In this document: in pieces, positions 8,087 through 61,808 of the stretch | Position numbering within the stretch: the first letter of the stretch is position 1 | How the letters are laid out: every line of letters begins with the position of its first letter | Assembly (NCBI RefSeq): GCF_000756715.1 | Contig: NZ_CCSE01000001.1 | Location: 434,001 to 498,000 of the forward strand | Source: Jeotgalicoccus saudimassiliensis | Lineage (GTDB): Bacteria; Bacillota; Bacilli; Staphylococcales; Salinicoccaceae | Reading direction: 5' to 3' | DNA length: 64,000 nucleotides | Translations under genes and position numbers: made by a program | Notes under the pieces: model-generated | The model's database searches: none | What the model was told of the DNA's origin: nothing | Seen by the model: the letters and a program-made list of their open reading frames with translations, nothing else

Positions 8087-8518
8087 ATGTTCATGGGTGA
8101 GTACAAACATAATTTGGATACGAAAGGCCGTATAATTGTGCCGAGTAAATTCAGAGAATTACTCGATGAACAATTCGTTATTACGCGTGGCCTCGACCGC
8201 TGTTTATTCGCGTATACAGTGGATGAATGGAGCCGTATTGAAGATAAACTTAAAACACTTCCGCTGACAAAAAAAGACGCGCGTAAGTTTACGAGATTAT
8301 TTTTCTCAGGTGCCACTTCCGTGGAAATCGACAAGCAGGGACGTATTAATATTCCGCAGAATCTGCGTGAATATGCGGGACTGTCGAAAGATTGTACGGT
8401 AATTGGAGTCTCAAGCAGAATTGAAATTTGGGATTCGGCAGCATGGGAAGATTTTTATACAGAATCTGAAGATAACTTTGAAGATATAGCAGAAGATTTA
8501 ATCGATTTTGACCTTTAG
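8087..8518 (+). CDS. mraZ: Transcriptional regulator / division protein MraZ
   Basis: A 143-residue protein with two SpoVT-AbrB-type DNA-binding halves: [21 protein letters not shown] at the start and [17 protein letters not shown] at about residues 80-97. MraZ binds upstream repeats of the dcw operon as a ring-shaped oligomer and usually represses it. The matching repeats are visible at 8034-8057. GGGGTG precedes the ATG. It is the first gene of the cluster and is followed by rsmH after 11 bases. Confidence 0.95.
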
Positions 8519-8529
8519 GATGTGACAGG

Positions 8530-9459
8530 ATGTTCAACCACACTTCAGTTTTACTAAAAGAAACAGTCGATGGTTTAAATATTAAACCCGACGGCATATA
8601 CGTCGATGCAACACTCGGCGGAGGCGGACATACTTCATATTTATTGTCACAGCTTGAAACGGGGCATGTCTATGCATTTGATCAGGATATGACAGCGATA
8701 AATAATGCCCGCGAAAAATTTAAAGATCACAGCAATATAACGTTAATTCATACTAATTTTGAAAATATAACTTCAGCACTAAACGACATCGGTGTGACAG
8801 GCATCGACGGTATTTTATATGACCTGGGTGTTTCAAGTCCTCAGCTCGACGTTACAGAGCGGGGTTTCAGTCACTCAAAAACAGCGAGACTCGACATGAG
8901 AATGGATCAGACACAGGAACTCGATGCTTACGAGATTGTTAATGAGTACTCATACGAAGCACTGGTAAGCATATTTTTCAGATATGGTGAAGAAAAATTT
9001 TCGAAAAAGATTGCACGGGAAATCGAACGCTTACGCAAAATTGAGCCGATTGAAACAACGACGGAACTTGCCGACATTATTAAGTCTCAGATTCCGCAGA
9101 AATTCAGGCGTACAGGCGGACACCCTGCGAAACGTATTTTCCAGGCGCTCCGAATTGCAGTTAACGATGAACTTGGCGTATTTGAACGTTCACTGGAACA
9201 GGCAATTGAACTCCTGAACAAAGATGGACGTGTATCAGTAATTACATTCCACTCGCTGGAAGACAGAATTTGTAAGCAGATGTTCGTAGAATATGAAAAG
9301 GGGCCGGAGCTTCCGAAAAACATGCCGATTATCCCCGAAGGATATGAACCGGTATTAAAAAGGGTGAACCGCAAACCGATTATTGCAGAGGGCGATGATC
9401 TTGAAGCGAACCCGCGCGCGCGCAGCGCGAAGCTTCGAATTGCCGAGAAACAAGTATAG
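8530..9459 (+). CDS. rsmH: 16S rRNA (cytosine-N4)-methyltransferase RsmH
   Basis: A 309-residue SAM-dependent methyltransferase acting on C1402 of 16S rRNA (formerly MraW). The start [17 protein letters not shown], the SAM site [15 protein letters not shown], the [10 protein letters not shown] block and the [17 protein letters not shown] segment are diagnostic. AGGATG lies upstream of the ATG. Second gene of the dcw operon. Confidence 0.96.
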
Positions 9460-42419: not shown

Positions 42420-43166
42420 TTGAAAGTAATTGAAAAAAGTATTTGCGGTAATTACAGAGATACAAATGAAGATTTAACAGGACATTTTTACAACCGGACA
42501 AATCAGCCGCTCCTCTTAATTGCGGATGGTATGGGCGGTCACGAATACGGAGAAGTTGCGAGTAAATTTGTTTACGATAAAGTAAAAGCGGCATGGGAAA
42601 GCAATAATCTGTTTAACATGGACGAAGCGGAACGCTATTTGCGCGACCTCGTGATGAAAACAAATCACGAACTGTACGATTACCAGGAAGAAAATCCAGA
42701 GTATCATGGGATGGGCACGACGCTCGTACTTGTGGCAGTTATCGAGTCATCGATTATCGTTCTAAATGTCGGTGACTCCCGTGCGTTTGTTATGAATAAC
42801 CGTAAGATCGAGCAGGTGACGGAAGATCATACTTTCGTGAACGTTCTCGTCTCGAGCGGTGAAATTACAGAAGAAGAAGCACTGACACATCCGAGACGTA
42901 ATCTGATTACAAAGGCGATGGGCACGGAGAAAGTCATTCAGGCGGATGTATTCCGTCTTCGCGGACGCCAGTATGATTACATCGTCCTCGCAACTGACGG
43001 TCTGACAGATGCAGTCAGAACCGATGAAATACATCATTTAATGTACAGCACGAAACTGACGCTTCAGGAAAAAGCGGAGGAACTGACAAAAACTGCAGAA
43101 ATGAACAATTCACGGGATAATATCAGTGTCGTCCTCGCTGACCTGAAAGCAGGTGGAGACACGTGA
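42420..43166 (+). CDS. prpC: PP2C-type serine/threonine phosphatase PrpC (Stp)
   Basis: A 248-residue metal-dependent phosphatase that reverses PrkC phosphorylation. Metal-binding motifs: RDTNEDL near the start, LIADGMGGHEYGE, NVGDSRAF, LATDGLTD and the late SRDNISVV. The start codon is TTG behind GGAGGG. Its stop overlaps the prkC GTG start, so kinase and phosphatase are made together. Confidence 0.95.
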   Translation: MKVIEKSICGNYRDTNEDLTGHFYNRTNQPLLLIADGMGGHEYGEVASKFVYDKVKAAWESNNLFNMDEAERYLRDLVMKTNHELYDYQEENPEYHGMGTTLVLVAVIESSIIVLNVGDSRAFVMNNRKIEQVTEDHTFVNVLVSSGEITEEEALTHPRRNLITKAMGTEKVIQADVFRLRGRQYDYIVLATDGLTDAVRTDEIHHLMYSTKLTLQEKAEELTKTAEMNNSRDNISVVLADLKAGGDT

Positions 43167-45154
43167 TCGGTACAGTTGTTTCCGAACGTTATAAAATAGA
43201 GAAGTATCTCGGCGGCGGCATGAGTTCAGTTTATCTGGCGACGGATATTATTCTGAACCGTGAAGTTGTCGTTAAGATGATTAAGGCGGATCCGCTGCAT
43301 AAAGAAAAATCAGTCCAGCGTTTCCAGCGTGAAGTGGAAAGTACAATCCAGCTGTCACATCCGAATATCGTCAGCGTGATGGATGTGGATGAAACAGAGG
43401 AGTACCATATTCTCGTTACAGAAGTGGTACACGGTCCGAACTTAAAAGAACATATCGTTAAAAACAGTCCGCTTGATATCGACGAAGTCATCAGCATTGC
43501 AATGATGACACTGCGTGGTATCGAGCACGCACACGACCGGGGTATTATTCACCGTGATATAAAACCCCAGAATATTCTGCTCGATGCTGACGGCAGAGTT
43601 AAAATAACCGATTTCGGTATTGCAAAAGCACTGAGTGAAACACGAATGACAGAGACGAATCAGGTCATCGGTTCCGTCCAGTACATTTCACCGGAACAGG
43701 CGAAAGGTCAGAACACGGATGAACGTACCGATATATACTCTTTTGGTGTTATGCTGTTTGAACTGCTGACAGGTAAACTGCCTTATGAAGCTGAAACAGC
43801 TGTATCGGTAGCACTGAAACATATTTCAGAGCCGTTTCCGGATATTTCCGAGTACCGTGATATTCCAGTCGGTTTAAAAAATATCGTCATGAAATGTACG
43901 GAAAAAGAGCCGATGAACAGATACAGACATGCAGATGATGTACTGTCGGCGCTCGTGTACTATAAAGATGTTTCAAAACCGTATGTACCGGCTAAAAAAC
44001 ACGAGCAGGAAAAAACGAAGGTGACACCGGTTCCTAAAAAAGAAGAGCCTGAAAACAAAGCGCAGGCAGCACCGGTTCCGGTGCATAAACCAAAAGCAGA
44101 ACCCCAGTCTGAACCACCCGCCGGTGAAGAAAAGAAAAAAAGGCGTAAGTGGCCGTGGATAGTGTTCCTCCTGCTGTTTCTCCTGACAGCTGCGGCAGTT
44201 ATCGTCTATCTGCTGTGGCCGAGACAGTCACCGACAGTCAGCCTCGTGAACCTGCAGGATATGACAGTTGAAGAAGCTGAGGAATATCTGCTGTCGGAAG
44301 ATCTCGTTACCGGGAATATTTCTGAAATTTACGACGACAGCTTTGAAGAGGGCAGTATTATAGAAACGTCACCGGTGTCCGGTGCCGAGGTCGAACGTGG
44401 CAGCACTGTGGATATGCTTGTGAGTAAAGGTGAAGAACCGTATACGACAGAAGATTACACAAATCAAATGTATGAAGATGTCGAAGCGGACCTTGAAGCT
44501 GCAGGATTTACAATAGACAGCGAGAATCAGTACAGCAGTGAAATACCTGCCGGTACGATTATCGATCAGGATGTCGCAGCAGGTGAGGCGGTCTATCCGG
44601 ATGAAACTGAAATTACATTTACAGTATCCGACGGTCCCGAGCCGGTCCCGGTTACAAACTATGCCGGGACATCGCTTGAAGCGGCCCGTGCCGAACTTGA
44701 GAGCCGGGGCTTTATCGTCAATGTAACGAATGAAATATACAGCAGTGAAGTGCCTGCCGGCGCAATTGTGTCACAGGATCCGAGTTACGGGGACTTCCTG
44801 CCGGGTTCACATATTAACGTCATCGTATCTCTTGGTGAAGAGCCGCCGAGAGAAACGACATACCAGATTTCGCTGAACATACCGTATCCAAAAGAGACGG
44901 ACAGTTCATCATCATCTTCATCTAAAGATGATGACAAGGAGAAAAAAGACAAGAAACAGAAGCCTGAACCGGTGGAAGCGGAAATCTTTATCGGCGATAA
45001 GGATAATGACGTCAAACAGGTTGCTGAAACGATTGAAATCACCGAAGATACCAACCACACCATTTCTCTGATTCTCCTGGAAGGTGAATCGGGGCAATAC
45101 CGTGTAGAGGTTGACGGAGAAGAAGTAATAAGCGAAACTGTAGATAATAAGTAA
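43163..45154 (+). CDS. prkC: PASTA-domain serine/threonine protein kinase PrkC (Stk1/PknB)
   Basis: A 663-residue membrane kinase. The kinase domain (about 10-270) has the ATP lysine Lys38, HRDIKPQN with Asp132 and DFG at 150-152; a charged linker leads to one membrane helix (330-352). Outside are three PASTA modules (about 356-423, 424-492, 493-560), a Ser/Asp/Lys-rich spacer with six serines in a row (about 583-600) and a small C-terminal beta domain. PASTA modules sense peptidoglycan fragments or lipid II. The start codon is GTG. Length is nearly that of S. aureus PknB. The rsgA gene that normally follows is displaced by the oleT insert. Confidence 0.96.
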   Translation: MIGTVVSERYKIEKYLGGGMSSVYLATDIILNREVVVKMIKADPLHKEKSVQRFQREVESTIQLSHPNIVSVMDVDETEEYHILVTEVVHGPNLKEHIVKNSPLDIDEVISIAMMTLRGIEHAHDRGIIHRDIKPQNILLDADGRVKITDFGIAKALSETRMTETNQVIGSVQYISPEQAKGQNTDERTDIYSFGVMLFELLTGKLPYEAETAVSVALKHISEPFPDISEYRDIPVGLKNIVMKCTEKEPMNRYRHADDVLSALVYYKDVSKPYVPAKKHEQEKTKVTPVPKKEEPENKAQAAPVPVHKPKAEPQSEPPAGEEKKKRRKWPWIVFLLLFLLTAAAVIVYLLWPRQSPTVSLVNLQDMTVEEAEEYLLSEDLVTGNISEIYDDSFEEGSIIETSPVSGAEVERGSTVDMLVSKGEEPYTTEDYTNQMYEDVEADLEAAGFTIDSENQYSSEIPAGTIIDQDVAAGEAVYPDETEITFTVSDGPEPVPVTNYAGTSLEAARAELESRGFIVNVTNEIYSSEVPAGAIVSQDPSYGDFLPGSHINVIVSLGEEPPRETTYQISLNIPYPKETDSSSSSSSKDDDKEKKDKKQKPEPVEAEIFIGDKDNDVKQVAETIEITEDTNHTISLILLEGESGQYRVEVDGEEVISETVDNK

Positions 45155-45157
45155 ATA

Positions 45158-45187
45158 TTGGCATTGGCTTTGCTGTTTATATATAAT
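45158..45187 (+). promoter_or_regulatory. Candidate promoter of oleT
   Basis: TTGGCA (45158-45163), 18-base spacer, TATAAT (45182-45187), 32 bases before the oleT ATG. It begins 3 bases after the prkC stop, so oleT likely has its own transcript. Confidence 0.65.
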
Positions 45188-45219
45188 GGTAAGGTACATT
45201 CGAATTGGAGGAATGAATT

Positions 45220-46488
45220 ATGGCATCACTTAAGAGGGATAAAGGCCTGGATAACACTTTGAAATTAATGAAACAGGGATATCTTTACACGACTAACCAG
45301 CGCAACCGTTTAGACACGACTGTGTTTGAAACGAAAGTATTAGGCGGTAAGCCTTTCGCTGTAGTTACAGGTAAAGAAGGCGCTGAAATGTTCTACAACA
45401 ACGACGTTGTTCAGCGTGAGGGCATGCTTCCGAAACGTATCGTTAATACACTTTTCGGTAAAGGTGCAATCCACACTATCGATGGTAAAAAACACATCGA
45501 CAGAAAAGCATTATTCATGAGTTTAATGACAGAAGGAAACCTTGACTACGTCCGTGAACTGACACGTACTTTATGGCGTGCAAACACTCAGCGTATGGAA
45601 AGCATGGATCAGGTAAACATTTACCGCGAATCTATCGTTCTTCTGACTAAAGTCGGTACCCGCTGGGCCGGAGTCCAGGCACCGCCTGAAGACATCGAAA
45701 GAATTGCAACTGATATGGATATCATGATCGACTCATTCAAAGGTCTCGGGGGCGCGTTCAAAGGATACAAAGAATCCAAAGCTGCACGCCGCCGCGTTGA
45801 AGACTGGCTTGAGGAACAGATTCTTGAAACTCGTAAAGGAAACATTCATCCGCCGGAAGGCACTGCACTTTACGAATTCGCTCATTGGGAAGACTACCTT
45901 GGCAACCCGATGGACTCAAGAAATTGTGCAATCGACTTAATGAACACATTCCGTCCATTAATCGCTATTAACCGTTTTGTGTCATTCGGACTGCTTGCTA
46001 TGCATGACAACCCGATTACACGTGAGAAAATTAAGAGCGAGCCTGACTATGCATACAAATTTGCACAGGAAGTCCGCCGTTTCTACCCGTTCGTGCCATT
46101 CTTACCTGGTAAAGCCAAAGTAGATATCGACTTCCAGGGTGTTACAATTCCTGCGGGTCACGGTCTTGCATTAGACGTATACGGAACAATGCATGACGAA
46201 ACACTTTGGGAAGATCCAAATGAATTCCGTCCGGAAAGATTCGAAGACTGGGACGGTTCACCGTTTGACCTTATTCCACAGGGCGGCGGAGACTACTGGA
46301 CTAACCACCGCTGTGCAGGTGAGTGGATTACAGTAATTATCATGGAAGAAACTATGAAGTACTTCGCAGAAAAAGTAACTTATGATGTACCGGAACAGGA
46401 CTTAACAGTTGATCTTAACAGTATCCCGGGATACGTTAAGAGCGGATTCATCATCAGCAACGTTCAGGAAGTAGTAGACAGAAAATAA
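45220..46488 (+). CDS. oleT: Fatty-acid decarboxylating P450 peroxygenase OleT (CYP152 family)
   Basis: A 422-residue cytochrome P450 that, in Jeotgalicoccus, uses hydrogen peroxide to turn long-chain fatty acids into terminal alkenes and CO2, with some alpha- and beta-hydroxylation. The sequence agrees with published OleT from memory over its full length, including the length itself. Key residues fall at the published positions: Phe79 and His85 in LFGKGAIH, Arg245 in NTFRPLIAIN, which holds the substrate carboxylate, and haem-ligand Cys365 in TNHRCAGEW. His85 separates OleT from the hydroxylating relatives, which have Gln. There is no signal or membrane segment. GGAGG lies 8 bases before the ATG. 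Codon use is strongly biased, like ftsZ and ileS, suggesting high expression. It has its own promoter and terminator, and no ferredoxin or reductase gene is nearby, as fits a peroxygenase. Confidence 0.95.
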   Translation: MASLKRDKGLDNTLKLMKQGYLYTTNQRNRLDTTVFETKVLGGKPFAVVTGKEGAEMFYNNDVVQREGMLPKRIVNTLFGKGAIHTIDGKKHIDRKALFMSLMTEGNLDYVRELTRTLWRANTQRMESMDQVNIYRESIVLLTKVGTRWAGVQAPPEDIERIATDMDIMIDSFKGLGGAFKGYKESKAARRRVEDWLEEQILETRKGNIHPPEGTALYEFAHWEDYLGNPMDSRNCAIDLMNTFRPLIAINRFVSFGLLAMHDNPITREKIKSEPDYAYKFAQEVRRFYPFVPFLPGKAKVDIDFQGVTIPAGHGLALDVYGTMHDETLWEDPNEFRPERFEDWDGSPFDLIPQGGGDYWTNHRCAGEWITVIIMEETMKYFAEKVTYDVPEQDLTVDLNSIPGYVKSGFIISNVQEVVDRK

Positions 46489-46503
46489 TTGTAGTATATA
46501 AAG

Positions 46504-46541
46504 AACGCGCAGCCCGTTTATTCGGACTGCGCGTTTATTTT
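46504..46541 (+). terminator. Terminator after oleT
   Basis: AACGCGCAG (46504-46512) pairs with CTGCGCGTT (46527-46535), with further pairing inside, followed by TTATTTT. It lies between convergent genes and may serve both. Confidence 0.8.
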
Positions 46542-46543
46542 AA

Positions 46544-46846
46544 TTACCGTATATAATTTCTCGGGCCGGTGTATTCCATCATACCGCCTTCAACGTTATG
46601 CGCTTCATAACCGTGTGACTGCATATACTCCTGCACGCGTTTTGAACGTCCCCCGGCTTTACAGACGAGATAATAGCTTTTATCTTTATCAAGAGATGAT
46701 TCATCGAGATTGAACGTGCTCATCGGGTAGTGGACAGCACCCGGCAGAAAGCCTGTTAACTCAAGTTCATCCGTTTCACGAACGTCAATAATAACGCTGT
46801 TGTCATCTTTTTGAACAGTATCAATTTGTGAAATATTTATATCCAT
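46544..46846 (-). CDS. Single-domain rhodanese-like protein
   Basis: A 100-residue rhodanese domain. The sequence has IIDVRETDELELTGFLPGA at the start of the domain and the active-site cysteine in LVCKAGGRSKRV, so it should carry a persulfide and may act as a sulfurtransferase. Partner and pathway are unknown. The ATG at 46846 is chosen because GGAGG lies 8 bases upstream; an ATG five codons earlier overlaps that site. It is convergent with oleT and divergent from rsgA, and forms part of the insert between prkC and rsgA. Confidence 0.85.
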   Translation of the reverse strand: MDINISQIDTVQKDDNSVIIDVRETDELELTGFLPGAVHYPMSTFNLDESSLDKDKSYYLVCKAGGRSKRVQEYMQSHGYEAHNVEGGMMEYTGPRNYIR

Positions 46847-46942
46847 TTTTACATCCTCCATAGTCTAATTTACAAATTCAATATTATCACAGTTAAATTG
46901 TTGTTATAATAAAATAGTATTTAAATTAACCCGAGGTGTTAT

Positions 46943-47803
46943 ATGCAGACAGGAAAAATTATTAAAGCACTGAGCGGCTTTTACTATGTAGAATCAAATG
47001 ATAAAGTGTACGAAACACGCGCTCGCGGCCGTTTCAGAAAAACAGCGGAAAGCCCGCTTGTCGGTGATTACGTTGAATTTCAAATAGAAAACGTCGACGA
47101 AGGGTACATTACAGCCATTAAACCGCGTAAAAACTCGCTTATCCGTCCGCCGGTTGCCAATATTGACCAGCTGCTGTTAACGACGAGTTTAAAATCACCG
47201 GATTTCAGCTTCTATTTGCTGGACCGCTTTATCGCGTACAGTGAAGCAAACGACATTAATCCGGTTATTATCGTGACAAAAAATGATTTAAGCGACGATG
47301 AAGCGCTGATCGAAGAAATTAAATCGGTCTACGGACCGATATATGAAGTTCACTTTACTGATAAAAATCACATTAATGAAGATCTGGCGGATGTGTTTGA
47401 CGGCAAAACGAGTGTGCTTGCAGGGCAGTCCGGTGCAGGGAAATCGACACTTCTGAACACGCTGCTGCCGCATCTGGATTTAAAGACAAATGAAATATCC
47501 AATGCATTAAATCGCGGAAAGCACACGACACGCCACGTTGAACTGATTAATATCAGCGGCGGTTTTATCGCGGATACTCCGGGCTTTGCAACGATCGACT
47601 TTTTAAATATCGATAAGTACAATATTAAATTCTGCTTCATTGACTTTAATGAGTACAGCTGCAAGTTCAGGGAATGTCTGCATATTAACGAACCGAAGTG
47701 CGGCGTTAAGGCGGCTGTTGAAACAGGAGAGCTCGCACAGTCACGCTACGACAGCTATGTAAAAATTTATAATGAAATTGATAACAGAAAAGAGAGGTAT
47801 TAG
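46943..47803 (+). CDS. rsgA: Ribosome small subunit-dependent GTPase RsgA
   Basis: A 286-residue circularly permuted GTPase that helps 30S subunit maturation. In order: N-terminal OB fold, GTPase with the G4 motif TKND before the P-loop GQSGAGKSTLLN (about 161-172), switch GKHTTRHVE and DTPGF, then a C-terminal zinc region with CKFRECLHINEPKC. The ATG follows GAGGTG. rpe begins 2 bases after. Confidence 0.95.
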   Translation: MQTGKIIKALSGFYYVESNDKVYETRARGRFRKTAESPLVGDYVEFQIENVDEGYITAIKPRKNSLIRPPVANIDQLLLTTSLKSPDFSFYLLDRFIAYSEANDINPVIIVTKNDLSDDEALIEEIKSVYGPIYEVHFTDKNHINEDLADVFDGKTSVLAGQSGAGKSTLLNTLLPHLDLKTNEISNALNRGKHTTRHVELINISGGFIADTPGFATIDFLNIDKYNIKFCFIDFNEYSCKFRECLHINEPKCGVKAAVETGELAQSRYDSYVKIYNEIDNRKERY

Positions 47804-52119: not shown

Positions 52120-52140
52120 TTGGGGAGGATTTACAATACA

Positions 52141-53796
52141 ATGGATAAGATAGATGGCTTGATGTTCCGCCAGATGATTTTGAGCGGGGCGCGTAATCTG
52201 AAAAAAAATGCTGATTATGTAGATTCATTAAACGTTTTCCCCGTTCCGGACGGTGATACGGGTACGAACATGAATCTTTCGATGTCTTCAGGTGCAGCAG
52301 AGGTTGAACCGTTAAAAGACGCGCATATCGGTAACGTAGGAAAACATTTCTCTAAAGGACTGCTTATGGGTGCACGCGGTAACTCGGGTGTAATTCTGTC
52401 GCAATTATTCAGAGGGTTCTCTAAAGCGATTGAATCCAAGGAATTTATCGATGCAGAGGAATTTATCGAAGCATTAAGACAAGGTGTAAACACTGCATAT
52501 AAAGCAGTCATGAAACCTGTTGAAGGTACAATTTTAACAGTCGCTAAGGATGCGGGCACAAAAGCGGAAGAATTTAAAGACAGCGGTGCATCGATGATCG
52601 ATGTGATGACTGCGACGCTTGAAGAGGCAAAAGCTGCACTTCAGCGCACGCCGGACCTGCTGCCGGTACTGAAAGAAGTCGGCGTTGTCGATTCGGGCGG
52701 CCAGGGACTTGTGTACGTTTACGAAGGATTTCTGAGTGCAATGACAGGTGAGGAAATTGAGGAAGACCCTGCACAGGCAGAGGCATCTTTTGCAGCTGAC
52801 GCACATGATCACGACCACGATAATGATTTTAACGATTTTATGAGCGTTGATGATATCGAGTTCGGTTACTGTACTGAGTTTATGGTTCGCTTTGAAGACG
52901 ATAAACGCAAATTCAACGAAGACGAATTCCGCAGTGAAATGAGCGAATTCGGTGACTCGCTGCTTGTAATCAACGATGACGAAATCGTTAAAGTTCACGT
53001 TCATACAGAGACTCCGGGTGAAGCATTTACGTATGCTGCAACATACGGAGAGCTCATCAAGATGAAAGTTGAAAACATGCGCGAACAATTCAGAACTGTT
53101 CACGGGGAAACGAATACAGCTGCAGTCGAAAAGCAGTCTTACGACACAGCGATTATTACGATTTCTACAGGTGACGGAATTAACGAACTCTTCAAGAGCA
53201 TCGGTGTGACGCACGTGATCAACGGCGGACAGACGATGAACCCGGCAACAGAAGACATCGTTAACGTTATTAAAGACGAAGATGTGAAGCAGGTTATTAT
53301 ACTGCCGAACAATAAAAATATTATTATGGCAGCTGAACAGGCTGTAGAAGTATTGGATATTCCTGCAGCAGTGGTTGCTTCAACATCTATTCCGGAAGGA
53401 CTTGCAAGTATGTTAAGCTTTAATCCGGAAGCTTCACTTGAAGACAACAAAGCTGCAATGAGCGAGTCGCTGGAGCATGTCCAAACAGGACAGGTGACAT
53501 ATTCGGTCCGTGACACTAAAATAGACGGTGTCGACATAAAGAAAGATCAGCATATGGGTATTGCCGAAGGTAAGATTATTACTGCCAACGACTCTAAAAA
53601 AGATACGCTTCACACATTAATCACCGGGATGATTGATGAAGATACTGAAATCATTACGATTCTTATCGGTGAAGACGGCTCTGAAGAGGAAGTTGAAGCA
53701 GTAGTTGAAGATATTGAAGGCACGCATGAGGATGTTGAATTTGAAATTCATAATGGTGCTCAGCCAGTCTACAGTTATCTAATATCTGTTGAATAA
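52141..53796 (+). CDS. fakA: Fatty acid kinase subunit FakA (DAK2 domain, YloV)
   Basis: A 551-residue kinase that phosphorylates fatty acids held by FakB, making acyl phosphates for PlsX/PlsY. The ATP-binding DAK2 domain (1-about 200) shows NVFPVPDGDTGTNM and GARGNSGVILSQL; the middle domain has the catalytic-type histidines in KVHVHTETPG. Between them lies a His/Asp-rich linker, HDHDHDND. GGGGAGG lies 12 bases before the ATG at 52141; a TTG at 52120 is part of that site. No fakB is in the window. Its product feeds PlsX, encoded at 59194. Confidence 0.94.
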   Translation: MDKIDGLMFRQMILSGARNLKKNADYVDSLNVFPVPDGDTGTNMNLSMSSGAAEVEPLKDAHIGNVGKHFSKGLLMGARGNSGVILSQLFRGFSKAIESKEFIDAEEFIEALRQGVNTAYKAVMKPVEGTILTVAKDAGTKAEEFKDSGASMIDVMTATLEEAKAALQRTPDLLPVLKEVGVVDSGGQGLVYVYEGFLSAMTGEEIEEDPAQAEASFAADAHDHDHDNDFNDFMSVDDIEFGYCTEFMVRFEDDKRKFNEDEFRSEMSEFGDSLLVINDDEIVKVHVHTETPGEAFTYAATYGELIKMKVENMREQFRTVHGETNTAAVEKQSYDTAIITISTGDGINELFKSIGVTHVINGGQTMNPATEDIVNVIKDEDVKQVIILPNNKNIIMAAEQAVEVLDIPAAVVASTSIPEGLASMLSFNPEASLEDNKAAMSESLEHVQTGQVTYSVRDTKIDGVDIKKDQHMGIAEGKIITANDSKKDTLHTLITGMIDEDTEIITILIGEDGSEEEVEAVVEDIEGTHEDVEFEIHNGAQPVYSYLISVE

Positions 53797-58626: not shown

Positions 58627-59190
58627 ATGGTGAAGCTAAAAAAACAGGAACGTCAATCGAGTTTGGAGTCTCATATTTCCGAGGACCCGTTTTTAACGGA
58701 TGAGCAGCTTGCAAATATTTTCGGTGTATCGATTCAGACGATACGTCTCGACCGGCTGGAACTGAACATTCCTGAGCTGCGTGCACGCATTAAAAATGTA
58801 GCGCGTGAAGGTGTCGACAAGATCCGCTCACTGTCTATTCAGGAAGTAGTCGGAGAAATTATCGATATTGAACTGAATGAGAGCGCGCTGTCGCTGTTTA
58901 TCATAGAAGAGGGTCACGTGTTCGAAAAGAATCACATCGCACGGGGACACTTCCTGTTCGCCCAGGCGAACTCGCTTTGTGTCGCGCTGATCGATGAGCC
59001 GCTTGCGTTAACGCAAAGTGCGGCTGTGGATTTCAAGCGTCCGGCGAAGCTGCATGATAAAGTAATTGCAAAAGCGAAAGTTACAGCGATGGATAATAAT
59101 AAAGCGCACATCGAAGTGGAATCAAAAGTCGATGGCAAAGTAATTTTTACTGGTAAATTTGAAATGTATTATAAAGACGAAGGTGAATAA
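58627..59190 (+). CDS. fapR: Fatty acid and phospholipid biosynthesis regulator FapR
   Basis: A 187-residue repressor with an N-terminal helix-turn-helix (about residues 20-55, LTDEQLANIFGVSIQTIRLD) and a C-terminal hot-dog domain that binds malonyl-CoA (GHVFEKNHIARGHFLFAQAN). It controls fatty-acid and phospholipid genes including its own operon. AGAGGA precedes the ATG. Its operator is just upstream. Confidence 0.95.
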   Translation: MVKLKKQERQSSLESHISEDPFLTDEQLANIFGVSIQTIRLDRLELNIPELRARIKNVAREGVDKIRSLSIQEVVGEIIDIELNESALSLFIIEEGHVFEKNHIARGHFLFAQANSLCVALIDEPLALTQSAAVDFKRPAKLHDKVIAKAKVTAMDNNKAHIEVESKVDGKVIFTGKFEMYYKDEGE

Positions 59191-59193
59191 ACG

Positions 59194-60177
59194 ATGGCTA
59201 AAATTGCTGTAGATTTAATGGGTGGAGATAACGCCCCGAAAGCGATAGAAGAAGGTATACTTCAGGCGGTGGACACGTTTGAAGATGTAGAGATTCTGGC
59301 ATACGGCATGGCGGGAAGCTACAGCGGAAACCATCCGCGGGTTACTTTCATCGAAGTGACGGAAAAAATCGAATCGGAAGATGATCCGGTCAAATCTGTC
59401 AGACGCAAAAAAGACAGCTCGCTTGTCAGAGCGGTTAAAGCTGTTGAGGACGGTGAAGCAGAAGCAATCGTTTCAGCGGGGAACACCGGTGCGATTATGA
59501 GTGCGGGGCTCTTCGGCGTCAAACGGATTAAAGGAATCGAACGACCTGCAATTACGACGATGCTCCCGACAACATCCGGCAAAGGTATGCTGATGCTTGA
59601 TATGGGTGCGAACTCTGAAAACAAACCGAACCATTTACTCCAGTTTGCACAGATGGCAAGCGTGTACATGGAAAATATTGAAGGGCGTAAAAATCCGACA
59701 ATCGGTTTAATTAACAACGGCAGCGAGGAAATTAAAGGCACAGAACTGACGAAAGAAACTTATCAGCTGTTAAAACACAGCGGACTGAACTTCGCCGGGT
59801 TCTTTGAAACGCGTGATATTTTAACAGGTGATGTGGATATCGCAGTGACTGACGGTTTTACAGGGAACGTCGTATTAAAAACAATTGAAGGTACATCATC
59901 AAGCCTGCTCGGCGAAGTGAAGAAAATCATGATGAAGAATCCGGTGAACAAACTTGCGGCACTGGCAATGAAAAATGATTTCCAGGAGCTTAAAAACATG
60001 CTCGACTACAGACAATTCGGCGGTGCACCGCTGATGGGGCTGCAGGGCAACGTCATTAAAGCCCACGGTTCTTCGGATGCGACTGCGATTGTCAACGCGG
60101 TTAAACAGGCTAAGATTATGGCTGACTCAGGCACGATCGACAAAATTAAAGATTTGATAGGTGAAACAAATGAGTAA
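59194..60177 (+). CDS. plsX: Phosphate acyltransferase PlsX
   Basis: A 327-residue enzyme that exchanges acyl-ACP and acyl phosphate. Start AKIAVDLMGGDNAPKA, SAGNTGAIMSAGLF and DGFTGNVVLKTIEG are typical. It links FakA (acyl phosphate from exogenous fatty acids) to PlsY and to ACP. Overlaps fabD by 8 bases. Confidence 0.96.
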   Translation: MAKIAVDLMGGDNAPKAIEEGILQAVDTFEDVEILAYGMAGSYSGNHPRVTFIEVTEKIESEDDPVKSVRRKKDSSLVRAVKAVEDGEAEAIVSAGNTGAIMSAGLFGVKRIKGIERPAITTMLPTTSGKGMLMLDMGANSENKPNHLLQFAQMASVYMENIEGRKNPTIGLINNGSEEIKGTELTKETYQLLKHSGLNFAGFFETRDILTGDVDIAVTDGFTGNVVLKTIEGTSSSLLGEVKKIMMKNPVNKLAALAMKNDFQELKNMLDYRQFGGAPLMGLQGNVIKAHGSSDATAIVNAVKQAKIMADSGTIDKIKDLIGETNE

Positions 60178-61078
60178 ATTAATTATTTTTCCGGGACAGG
60201 GTGCCCAGTACGGAGGAATGGCTAAAGATTTATATGAACAGAACGATAAATCCCGCGCCGTACTCGATGAAATTTTTTCATATGTTAACTTTGACTTAAA
60301 AGAGATTATGTTCAGCGAAGATGATGCGCGTTTAAACGATACGAAATACACGCAGCCGGCATTATTCGCACACAGCCTGGCGGTTCTTGCAGCAACAGGT
60401 CTTAAAGGTAATTACCTGCTCGGTCATTCACTTGGTGAACTTCCGGCACTTGTACACGCAGGTGTCGTGTCACTGGAAGACGGGGTTAAGCTTGTAACGA
60501 CCCGCGGTGAACTGATGAGTCAGGCGGACAGCGGTGCAATGGCAGCTGTAATCGGCATGGGCTTTAAAGATCTTGAAGAAGCGTGTATCAGCGTATCGGA
60601 CGACAACTCCAAAGTTGCACCGGCAAACATCAATGCACCGGACCAGGTCGTTGTGTCAGGTGATACTGATGCAGTTGAACGCTTTAAGGAACTTGCGAAA
60701 GAACGCGGTGCACGCCGCATCATCCCATTAAAAGTATCGGGTGCATTCCACTCCCACTTAATGGAGCCGGCACGCGCCGAGTTTAAATCATTCGTCGATA
60801 CGATTGACTTTAAAGATGCACAAATTCCGGTCATTCAAAACGTCAGCGCGAAAGCTGAAACGGATGCGTCGGTAATCAAACATCAGTTCGTTGAGCAGAT
60901 TACACATCCGGTACGTTTTGTTGAGTGTGTGGAAACTGCTGCCGAGCTTGGTGTGACAGAAGCAGTGGAGGTCGGACCGAAGAAAGTCCAGTCCGGTCTG
61001 GTGCGTAAAATTACAAAAGAAATATCTACTTCAAATATCGATACATTCGAACAGGCAGAGGTGTTTTTAAATGAGTAA
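60170..61078 (+). CDS. fabD: Malonyl-CoA:ACP transacylase FabD
   Basis: A 302-residue enzyme loading malonyl groups on [14 protein letters not shown] at the start, the catalytic Ser87 in GHSLGE and the catalytic His in SGAFHSHLM are present. The ATG at 60170 follows AGGTG and lies inside the end of plsX; a GTG three codons earlier touches that site. Overlaps fabG by 8 bases. Confidence 0.96.
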
Positions 61079-61808
61079 AATTGCATTGGTTACAGGTGCA
61101 TCTCGCGGTATCGGCCGTGAGATTGCATTAACACTGGCTGAAGACGGCCATACGGTAATCGTGAACTATTCAGGATCAAAAGACAAAGCGGACGACGTTG
61201 TCAAAGAAATCGAAGCAAAAGGCGGCACAGCTGAAAGCTACCAGTGCCACGTGCAGAACGCAGACGACGTTAAAGCGATGATTAAACACATTACGGATAC
61301 GTACGGCTCAATCGACATCGTTGTTAACAACGCGGGCATTACACGCGACAATCTGTTAATGCGCATGAAAGAAGAAGAATTCGATGATGTAATCGACGTC
61401 AATCTTAAAGGTGCATTTAATGTAATTAAGAGCGTGTCGCGTCCGATGATCCGTCAGAAATCAGGACGTATCGTCAACATTTCGAGCATTGTCGGTTCAC
61501 TCGGCAACGCCGGACAGACGAACTACGTTGCAACGAAAGCTGCAATTGACGGCATGACAAAATCCGTTGCCCGTGAACTGGCTTCGAAAAACATTACAGT
61601 GAACGGTGTTGCGCCGGGCTTCATCAAGAGCGATATGACAGACGTCCTCGGAGATGATATTAAAGACGGCATGATGCAGCAGATTCCATTGAAACATTTC
61701 GGTGAAACGAAGGATATTGCAAACGCTGTAAGCTTCTTAACAAGCGACAAAGCATCGTACATTACAGGTCAGATATTACACGTCAACGGCGGTATGTACA
61801 TGGGTTAA
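61071..61808 (+). CDS. fabG: 3-oxoacyl-[ACP] reductase FabG
   Basis: A 245-residue short-chain dehydrogenase that reduces 3-oxoacyl-ACP with NADPH. NADPH site [10 protein letters not shown] at residues 8-17, catalytic Ser139, Tyr152 and Lys156 (NYVATKAA). Translationally coupled to fabD. Confidence 0.96.

Follow-up and report, generated by a model that had tools for sequence, protein, structure and literature searches.

The oleT gene that lies between prkC and rsgA in Jeotgalicoccus saudimassiliensis very probably is an ancestral, vertically inherited positional ortholog encoding a probably well-expressed fatty-acid decarboxylase. It occupies positions 45220 to 46488 on the + strand of the window, by which we mean the whole stretch of 64,000 nucleotides that was analysed, and appears in the window's list of open reading frames as an intact ORF of 422 aa with an ATG start. 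A PDB search with its CYP152L product returned 4L40 (OleT_JE) as the best match, at 918.7 bits and covering residues 1–421, with 388 of 421 residues (92%) identical. Judging by this match and by its place in a clade of OleT proteins (SH-aLRT 100), the gene is the Jeotgalicoccus ortholog of OleT (CYP152L1), an enzyme that is already known together with its reaction.

The distribution and position of oleT were surveyed in 157 genomes of the order, including 33 of the own family. A CYP152 match was obtained in 73 of the 157 genomes, two of which (G118 and G132) carried other CYP152 lineages only, leaving 71 genomes with OleT. These comprised 33 of 33 genomes of the own family, the single genome of family f2 and 37 of the 108 genomes of family f4, while family f3 had it in 0 of its 15 genomes. 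Going by matching contigs, we take f4 to be Staphylococcaceae, its genus g14 to be Staphylococcus, and f3 to be Gemella-like. Within f4, OleT was found in all genomes of g10 (9/9), g11 (6/6), g12 (8/8) and g13 (1/1), and in 13 of the 84 genomes of g14. Outside the own family, five genera of the order, g10 to g13 included, had OleT in every sampled genome (25).

Among the 71 OleT genomes, prkC was located upstream of oleT on the same strand in 70, with other genes between them in some; the exception is a contig that begins 2.99 kb upstream of oleT and does not hold prkC (G063). Likewise, rsgA followed downstream, on the strand of oleT, in 68 of the 71 genomes, the exceptions being two genomes in which the contig ends first (G009 and G058) and one (G067) in which rsgA lies ~760 kb away and the prkC-oleT arrangement is kept. 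A scan of genome contigs yielded 40 oleT loci, and prkC and/or rsgA adjoined oleT in 39 of these, the remaining locus (L030) containing neither within its 10.2 kb. Empty prkC-rsgA sites were seen only outside the own family, in which every genome has oleT. A presumed second oleT copy in S. sediminis was rejected, as L013 and L035 proved to be one gene on two overlapping contig ends (1540 bases, 100% identity).

The codons of oleT were highly biased, in agreement with the earlier note. Its Nc of 41.4 ranked third and its CAI of 0.767 second among 60 window ORFs, the mean CAI of the reference ORFs themselves being 0.753; this reference consisted of 27 ORFs from the genome's own ribosomal-protein region, a few non-ribosomal ORFs included. 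For comparison across loci, four non-ribosomal ORFs were removed from the reference, and oleT then had the highest CAI in 29 of 29 family loci (from 28 genomes, with two pieces of one S. sediminis genome included and the window itself left out), against 4 to 9 neighbours each. In other families, it came first in 25 of 44 loci and was among the top two in 41, duplicate loci included. These near-ribosomal codons suggest high expression. OleT was also the most conserved protein among its neighbours, with a mean identity to the window protein of 80.6% in the own family (versus 53.2–77.7% for nine neighbours) and 60.6% in other families (versus 36.7–53.4% for eight neighbours).

The prkC stop codon ends at 45154 and is followed, after 3 bases, by a predicted oleT promoter (TTGGCA-18-TATAAT, 45158 to 45187, + strand) that agrees with the consensus at 11 of 12 positions and was one of the two best among 24 sites found by a consensus scan of 10 kb. 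Because shuffled sequences yielded a similar 19.4 sites (sd 5.2), a single promoter match proves little. Alignment of 28 family upstream regions, however, revealed that TTGGC[A/G]-18-TATAAT was exact in 22 rows while its flanks varied, and it is this conservation rather than the single match that bears out the proposal of the earlier note that oleT has its own promoter. Five Lacicoccus-group rows carried TTGGTA and, as counted by eye, a spacer of 19 bases, and one Salinicoccus row carried GTGGCA in place of TTGGCA. Together with the Shine-Dalgarno sequence GGAGG (45207 to 45211, + strand), the two promoter hexamers formed the main conserved blocks of these 28 regions. The promoter was not kept in 32 upstream regions viewed from other families, and inspection of the footprint by eye revealed nothing convincing for a FapR, PerR or other operator.

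The terminator that had also been proposed for oleT is likely present as a hairpin of 13 pairs (9 GC) in the oleT/rhodanese intergenic region (46504 to 46535). The scan called this hairpin on the – strand, but its + strand tail contains 6 T in 10, suggesting that the hairpin is probably shared and may end transcription of oleT as well as of the convergent rhodanese gene. Of 21 further family loci, all 21 had a hairpin of some kind within 130 bases of the oleT end (a count without shuffle control); these hairpins were mostly unrelated in sequence, and those of L005, L008, L015 and L028 were weaker, more distant or without a T-rich tail. Transcription of oleT is probably separate and at a high level. 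Its conservation at one locus, footprinted promoter, ribosomal-like codons and top conservation among neighbours together argue that oleT matters to the cell.

In the literature searched, we came across no explanation of what cells gain from making terminal alkenes. At 5.6 kb downstream of oleT, and listed as context only, the window contains a gene for a fakA-like fatty-acid kinase subunit (52120 to 53796, + strand; PF13684, PF02734 and PF21645). Further downstream, genes at 58627 to 61808 are presumably fapR-, plsX-, fabD- and fabG-like, with Pfam returning nothing but thioesterase-superfamily matches for the fapR-like gene. The presence of these fakA- and fab-like genes makes free fatty acids a natural theme for OleT, and a link between OleT and the fab region, 5.6 to 15.3 kb off, is no more than suggestive. 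We infer that OleT may serve either the disposal of free fatty acids or the supply of long-chain alkenes to the envelope. More broadly, terminal-alkene formation could be a core trait, ancestral and highly expressed, of the entire Salinicoccaceae-Staphylococcaceae line, retained for the homeostasis of free fatty acids or of the envelope in salty, lipid-rich habitats and dropped by the OleT-lacking Staphylococcus branches, a tentative proposal to which we give slightly less than an even chance. If true, comparing species that keep OleT with species that lose it could reveal its physiological role.

A role in which abundant OleT mainly removes peroxide or free fatty acids, with the alkene being incidental, would be compatible with oleT as an ancestral positional ortholog, but we consider it rather unlikely. 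The fatty-acid kinase and the fapR-, plsX- and fab-like genes 5.6–15.3 kb downstream fit such a role, as does the finding that 33 family genomes gave no oleate hydratase match above 30 bits. However, the linkage to the fab genes is loose, and the genome already holds two catalase genes and one superoxide dismutase gene. Moreover, oleate hydratase, counted at >300 bits (three of these with an internal stop), occurred within f2 and f4 in 6 of 38 genomes with OleT and in 18 of 71 without it, next to 0 of 33 in the own family and 5 of 15 in f3, and thus displayed no clear trade-off with OleT in f2 and f4. Oleate hydratase as an alternative to or companion of OleT was rejected on these same counts, which show no clear association either. 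With regard to the electron source, OleT_JE can work with redox partners in vitro, and cellular H2O2 has been argued to be far below the optimum (both from passages of PMC3937522). No redox-partner gene was recognised among the neighbours from 37.8 to 62.9 kb (part assigned by Pfam, the rest named by eye), as the earlier note had stated for the vicinity of oleT. A lactate-oxidase-type peroxide source was considered and dropped, since FMN_dh gave only three partial weak matches in the own genome.

Upstream, oleT is flanked by prkC, encoding a PASTA Ser/Thr kinase (43163 to 45154, + strand; PF00069 and three PASTA stretches), and downstream by rsgA (46943 to 47803, + strand; PF03193, 4e-53), with a convergent gene for a rhodanese-domain protein of 105 aa located between oleT and rsgA (46544 to 46861, – strand; PF00581, 1.1e-12). 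This prkC-rsgA run had been regarded as very stable, which turned out not to be the case: between aligned ends, the prkC-rsgA distance in relatives varies from 152 bases to 10.8 kb, with differing gene content. Gaps with oleT (67, duplicate loci included) measured 1456 to 10800 bases, and gaps without oleT (38 stretches with both flanks) 152 to 4476 bases, all lengths spanning alignment ends and some including a poorly conserved prkC end (L120 and L145). The 38 stretches are those that hold both prkC and rsgA among 42 stretches from OleT-lacking genomes (40 of the 71 such f4 genomes and two of f3), and no oleT remnants could be detected in these empty gaps at E up to 1. The run is permissive, with oleT as an old tenant.

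Several other genes share this region. The rhodanese gene, too, has long stood next to oleT, being present in many family loci (not those of Nosocomiicoccus) and in the Macrococcus group, and was not found beside oleT in Staphylococcus, Mammaliicoccus or f2 loci. In 25 stretches (duplicates included) from the Macrococcus group, the Mammaliicoccus group and family f2, a gene for a 401-aa protein without Pfam family is located between prkC and oleT (e.g. L086:5104-6309, – strand); an initial guess that it encodes a peptidase was abandoned, as Pfam gave no family. In some lineages oleT is followed by further genes, including potassium-uptake-like and histidine-kinase-like ones (by eye).

In the OleT tree, from which two partial OleT rows (L026 and L035) and four fragments of other CYP152 proteins (L153, L157, L167 and L170) were left out, the 66 OleT rows grouped as a single clade (SH-aLRT 100), with the 16 other CYP152 rows outside it. 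Inside this clade, the own family made up one group (95) and the other families another (84). A core tree was built from stp, rsgA and rpe of 108 loci, leaving out four loci without markers and nine duplicates, and shared its family- and genus-level clades with the oleT tree. The presence of oleT on the core tree could be explained by one gain and at least three losses in Staphylococcus; the computed count of six changes came down to one gain and three losses after two rows had been relabelled by hand, their genomes having oleT (L088, where rsgA is relocated, and L107, at a contig end, in the order reported). As 40 of the 71 OleT-lacking f4 genomes were sampled, this number of losses is a minimum.

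The two trees, both quick, were compared without a formal congruence test, the core tree resting on three proteins and having long branches, and they differed in some of their branching. Jeotgalicoccus grouped with Phocicoccus and Nosocomiicoccus in the oleT tree (97) and with Salinicoccus and Lacicoccus in the core tree (85), and the f2 row was placed with f4 in one tree (84), whereas in the other it had a very long branch and belonged to neither family. The trees likewise disagreed on how the Macrococcus, Mammaliicoccus and Staphylococcus groups branch, which the oleT tree did not resolve. In the history that we regard as very probable, oleT reached the prkC-rsgA gap before the divergence of Salinicoccaceae and Staphylococcaceae, has since been passed on mainly by vertical descent with strong conservation, and was lost at least three times in Staphylococcus.

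The earlier note had instead interpreted oleT as a cassette put into a stable core operon. As a recent or mobile insertion into the prkC-rsgA operon of Jeotgalicoccus, such an event is highly improbable, even though oleT comes with a promoter of its own and probably a terminator, the gap takes different genes in relatives, and the genus branching order differs between the oleT and core trees. Indeed, positional orthologs occur order-wide, the position being held in 33 of 33 family genomes, in the 25 genomes of the five further genera and in 13 of 84 g14 genomes. The earlier note had reasoned that the same gene in this gap across all Staphylococcaceae would speak against a cassette, and this is largely what we found, yet oleT is absent from most g14 and from 15 of 15 f3 genomes. 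Furthermore, family- and genus-level clades are the same in both trees, and the oleT codons resemble those of the host's ribosomal-protein region rather than being foreign. Although 119 of 72,556 plasmid records contained a CYP152 match, all were below 60% identity; phage records gave two matches among 50,697, at 32% identity, and outside the order no match exceeded 44% identity (398 class genomes, E up to 1e-60). Because other genes enter the gap in many lineages, the first arrival of oleT may well have been an insertion. Such an insertion is probable, although it would predate the split between the two large families, and an ancient single insertion is the likely origin of oleT at this locus. 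The idea of a recent cassette is corrected in this sense.

With respect to activity, orthology with OleT_JE, for which the mechanism has been published, would imply that Arg245 holds the carboxylate of a free long-chain fatty acid, that the haem-thiolate peroxygenase forms compound I with H2O2, and that compound I takes the beta hydrogen, yielding CO2 and a terminal alkene. For OleT_JE, part of PMC5377825 describes that Arg245 holds the carboxylate, that His85 and Phe79 shape the haem pocket, and that decarboxylation is H2O2-driven. Alignment of the window protein with 4L40 revealed that Phe79, His85, Ile170, Leu176, Arg245, Pro246 and Cys365 are the same in both, so that the earlier assignment of a CYP152 matching OleT by Phe79, His85, Arg245 and Cys365 stands. 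The haem-thiolate Cys365 aligns with the 4L40 cysteine, and the Arg245-Pro246 replacement of the acid-alcohol pair is present. Position 85 holds His and not Gln. A survey of 88 distinct rows (68 of the OleT clade, 16 of other CYP152 lineages and four fragments of the latter) showed Phe79, His85 and Arg245 in 68 of 68 OleT-clade rows, while all but three of the 16 complete rows of other lineages had Gln85, the three carrying Leu79 and His85. Since the H85Q variant of OleT_JE still favours alkene (PMC5377825, in part), His85 should be viewed as a marker and not as proof. The window protein scored 477.9 bits with NF053744, the CypC equivalog model for CYP152 hydroxylases, and this score below the 600-bit cut-off fits OleT rather than a BS-beta hydroxylase.

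Rude et al. (as cited in part of PMC5818669) reported terminal olefins from Jeotgalicoccus sp. ATCC 8456 as well as from further species of this genus. OleT_JH, OleT_SQ and OleT_SA are described as decarboxylases in PMC6452516, which also gives this name to CYP-Sm46 of S. massiliensis (PMC5588734), and OleT_LA is described as one in part of PMC12284513. With OleT_JE, OleT_SQ, OleT_LA and CYP-Sm46 as decarboxylases, known activities bracket the clade of the window protein from both sides, and the window protein has its place with proven decarboxylases and not with the hydroxylase type. By orthology, we infer that the window OleT would make terminal alkenes from fatty acids with H2O2. That it could be a BS-beta-type CYP152 hydroxylase releasing alkene as a by-product only is very unlikely given its 92% identity to a proven decarboxylase and the Phe79, His85 and Arg245 of its clade against the Gln85 of most other-lineage rows, even if OleT-type enzymes also yield hydroxylated by-products (PMC6452516, in part) and BS-beta makes some alkene (PMC5377825, in part).

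Other CYP152 genes were encountered as well. The own genome contains a decayed second CYP152 of the Gln85 type (C1, ~950985-951683 and 954446-954613; L153:4986-5684 and 8447-8614), of which an in-frame 232-aa fusion of residues 1–135 and 316–416 is 84–86% identical to the intact gene of a sister species, and a third fragment lies beside two ORFs that by eye resemble an IS21-type pair. Sister genomes hold intact copies of this Gln85-type second CYP152. The three rows with His85 and Leu79 (L158, L159 and L172) belong to genus g3 (the Lacicoccus group) and fall outside the OleT clade. In oleT of S. massiliensis (L042 and L102), what had looked like an inserted intein or domain was dismissed, the 573-base in-frame stretch before Arg245 being a run of N. 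For OleT_SA (WP_049319149), Staphylococcus aureus is given as the source and 69% as the identity to OleT_JE (PMC6452516, in part), a value that suits Mammaliicoccus better than Staphylococcus. Identity to the window protein amounted to 54–62% for g14 OleTs and 65–67% for those of the genus holding M. lentus, and from these identities the strain name of OleT_SA may be wrong.

OleT homologs above 60% identity have been noted mostly from Jeotgalicoccus, Staphylococcus and Salinicoccus (PMC6452516, in part). Among the matches listed, judged by titles and the starts of abstracts, no open-licence paper dealt with the genomic position of oleT or its order-wide conservation, which makes this positional conservation a modest new point for an enzyme studied for biofuel. 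The independent losses in Staphylococcus moreover provide a natural comparison for testing its function.

Compared with OleT_JE of Jeotgalicoccus sp. ATCC 8456 (CYP152L1; PDB 4L40 and 5M0N-5M0P), the window protein is identical at all residues named catalytic and differs by 33 substitutions, including those at positions 47 (Ala here, Val in OleT_JE) and 259 (Leu here, His in OleT_JE). OleT_LA (Lacicoccus alkaliphilus), OleT_SQ (CYP152L8) and CYP-Sm46 (CYP152L2, S. massiliensis S46) display 62–78% identity to the window protein. Salinicoccus qingdaonensis, the source of OleT_SQ, we take to be the same as Lacicoccus qingdaonensis, and the loci of L. alkaliphilus, L. qingdaonensis and S. massiliensis CCUG 55927 agree with the window oleT in both clade and prkC-rsgA position. 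P450 BS-beta (CYP152A1, PDB 1IZO) has the P450 family, the Arg-Pro motif and the use of peroxide in common with OleT (parts of PMC5818669 and PMC5377825), but carries Gln85 and is mainly a hydroxylase (PMC5377825, in part), and it scores 337.2 bits with the window OleT versus 918.7 for OleT_JE.
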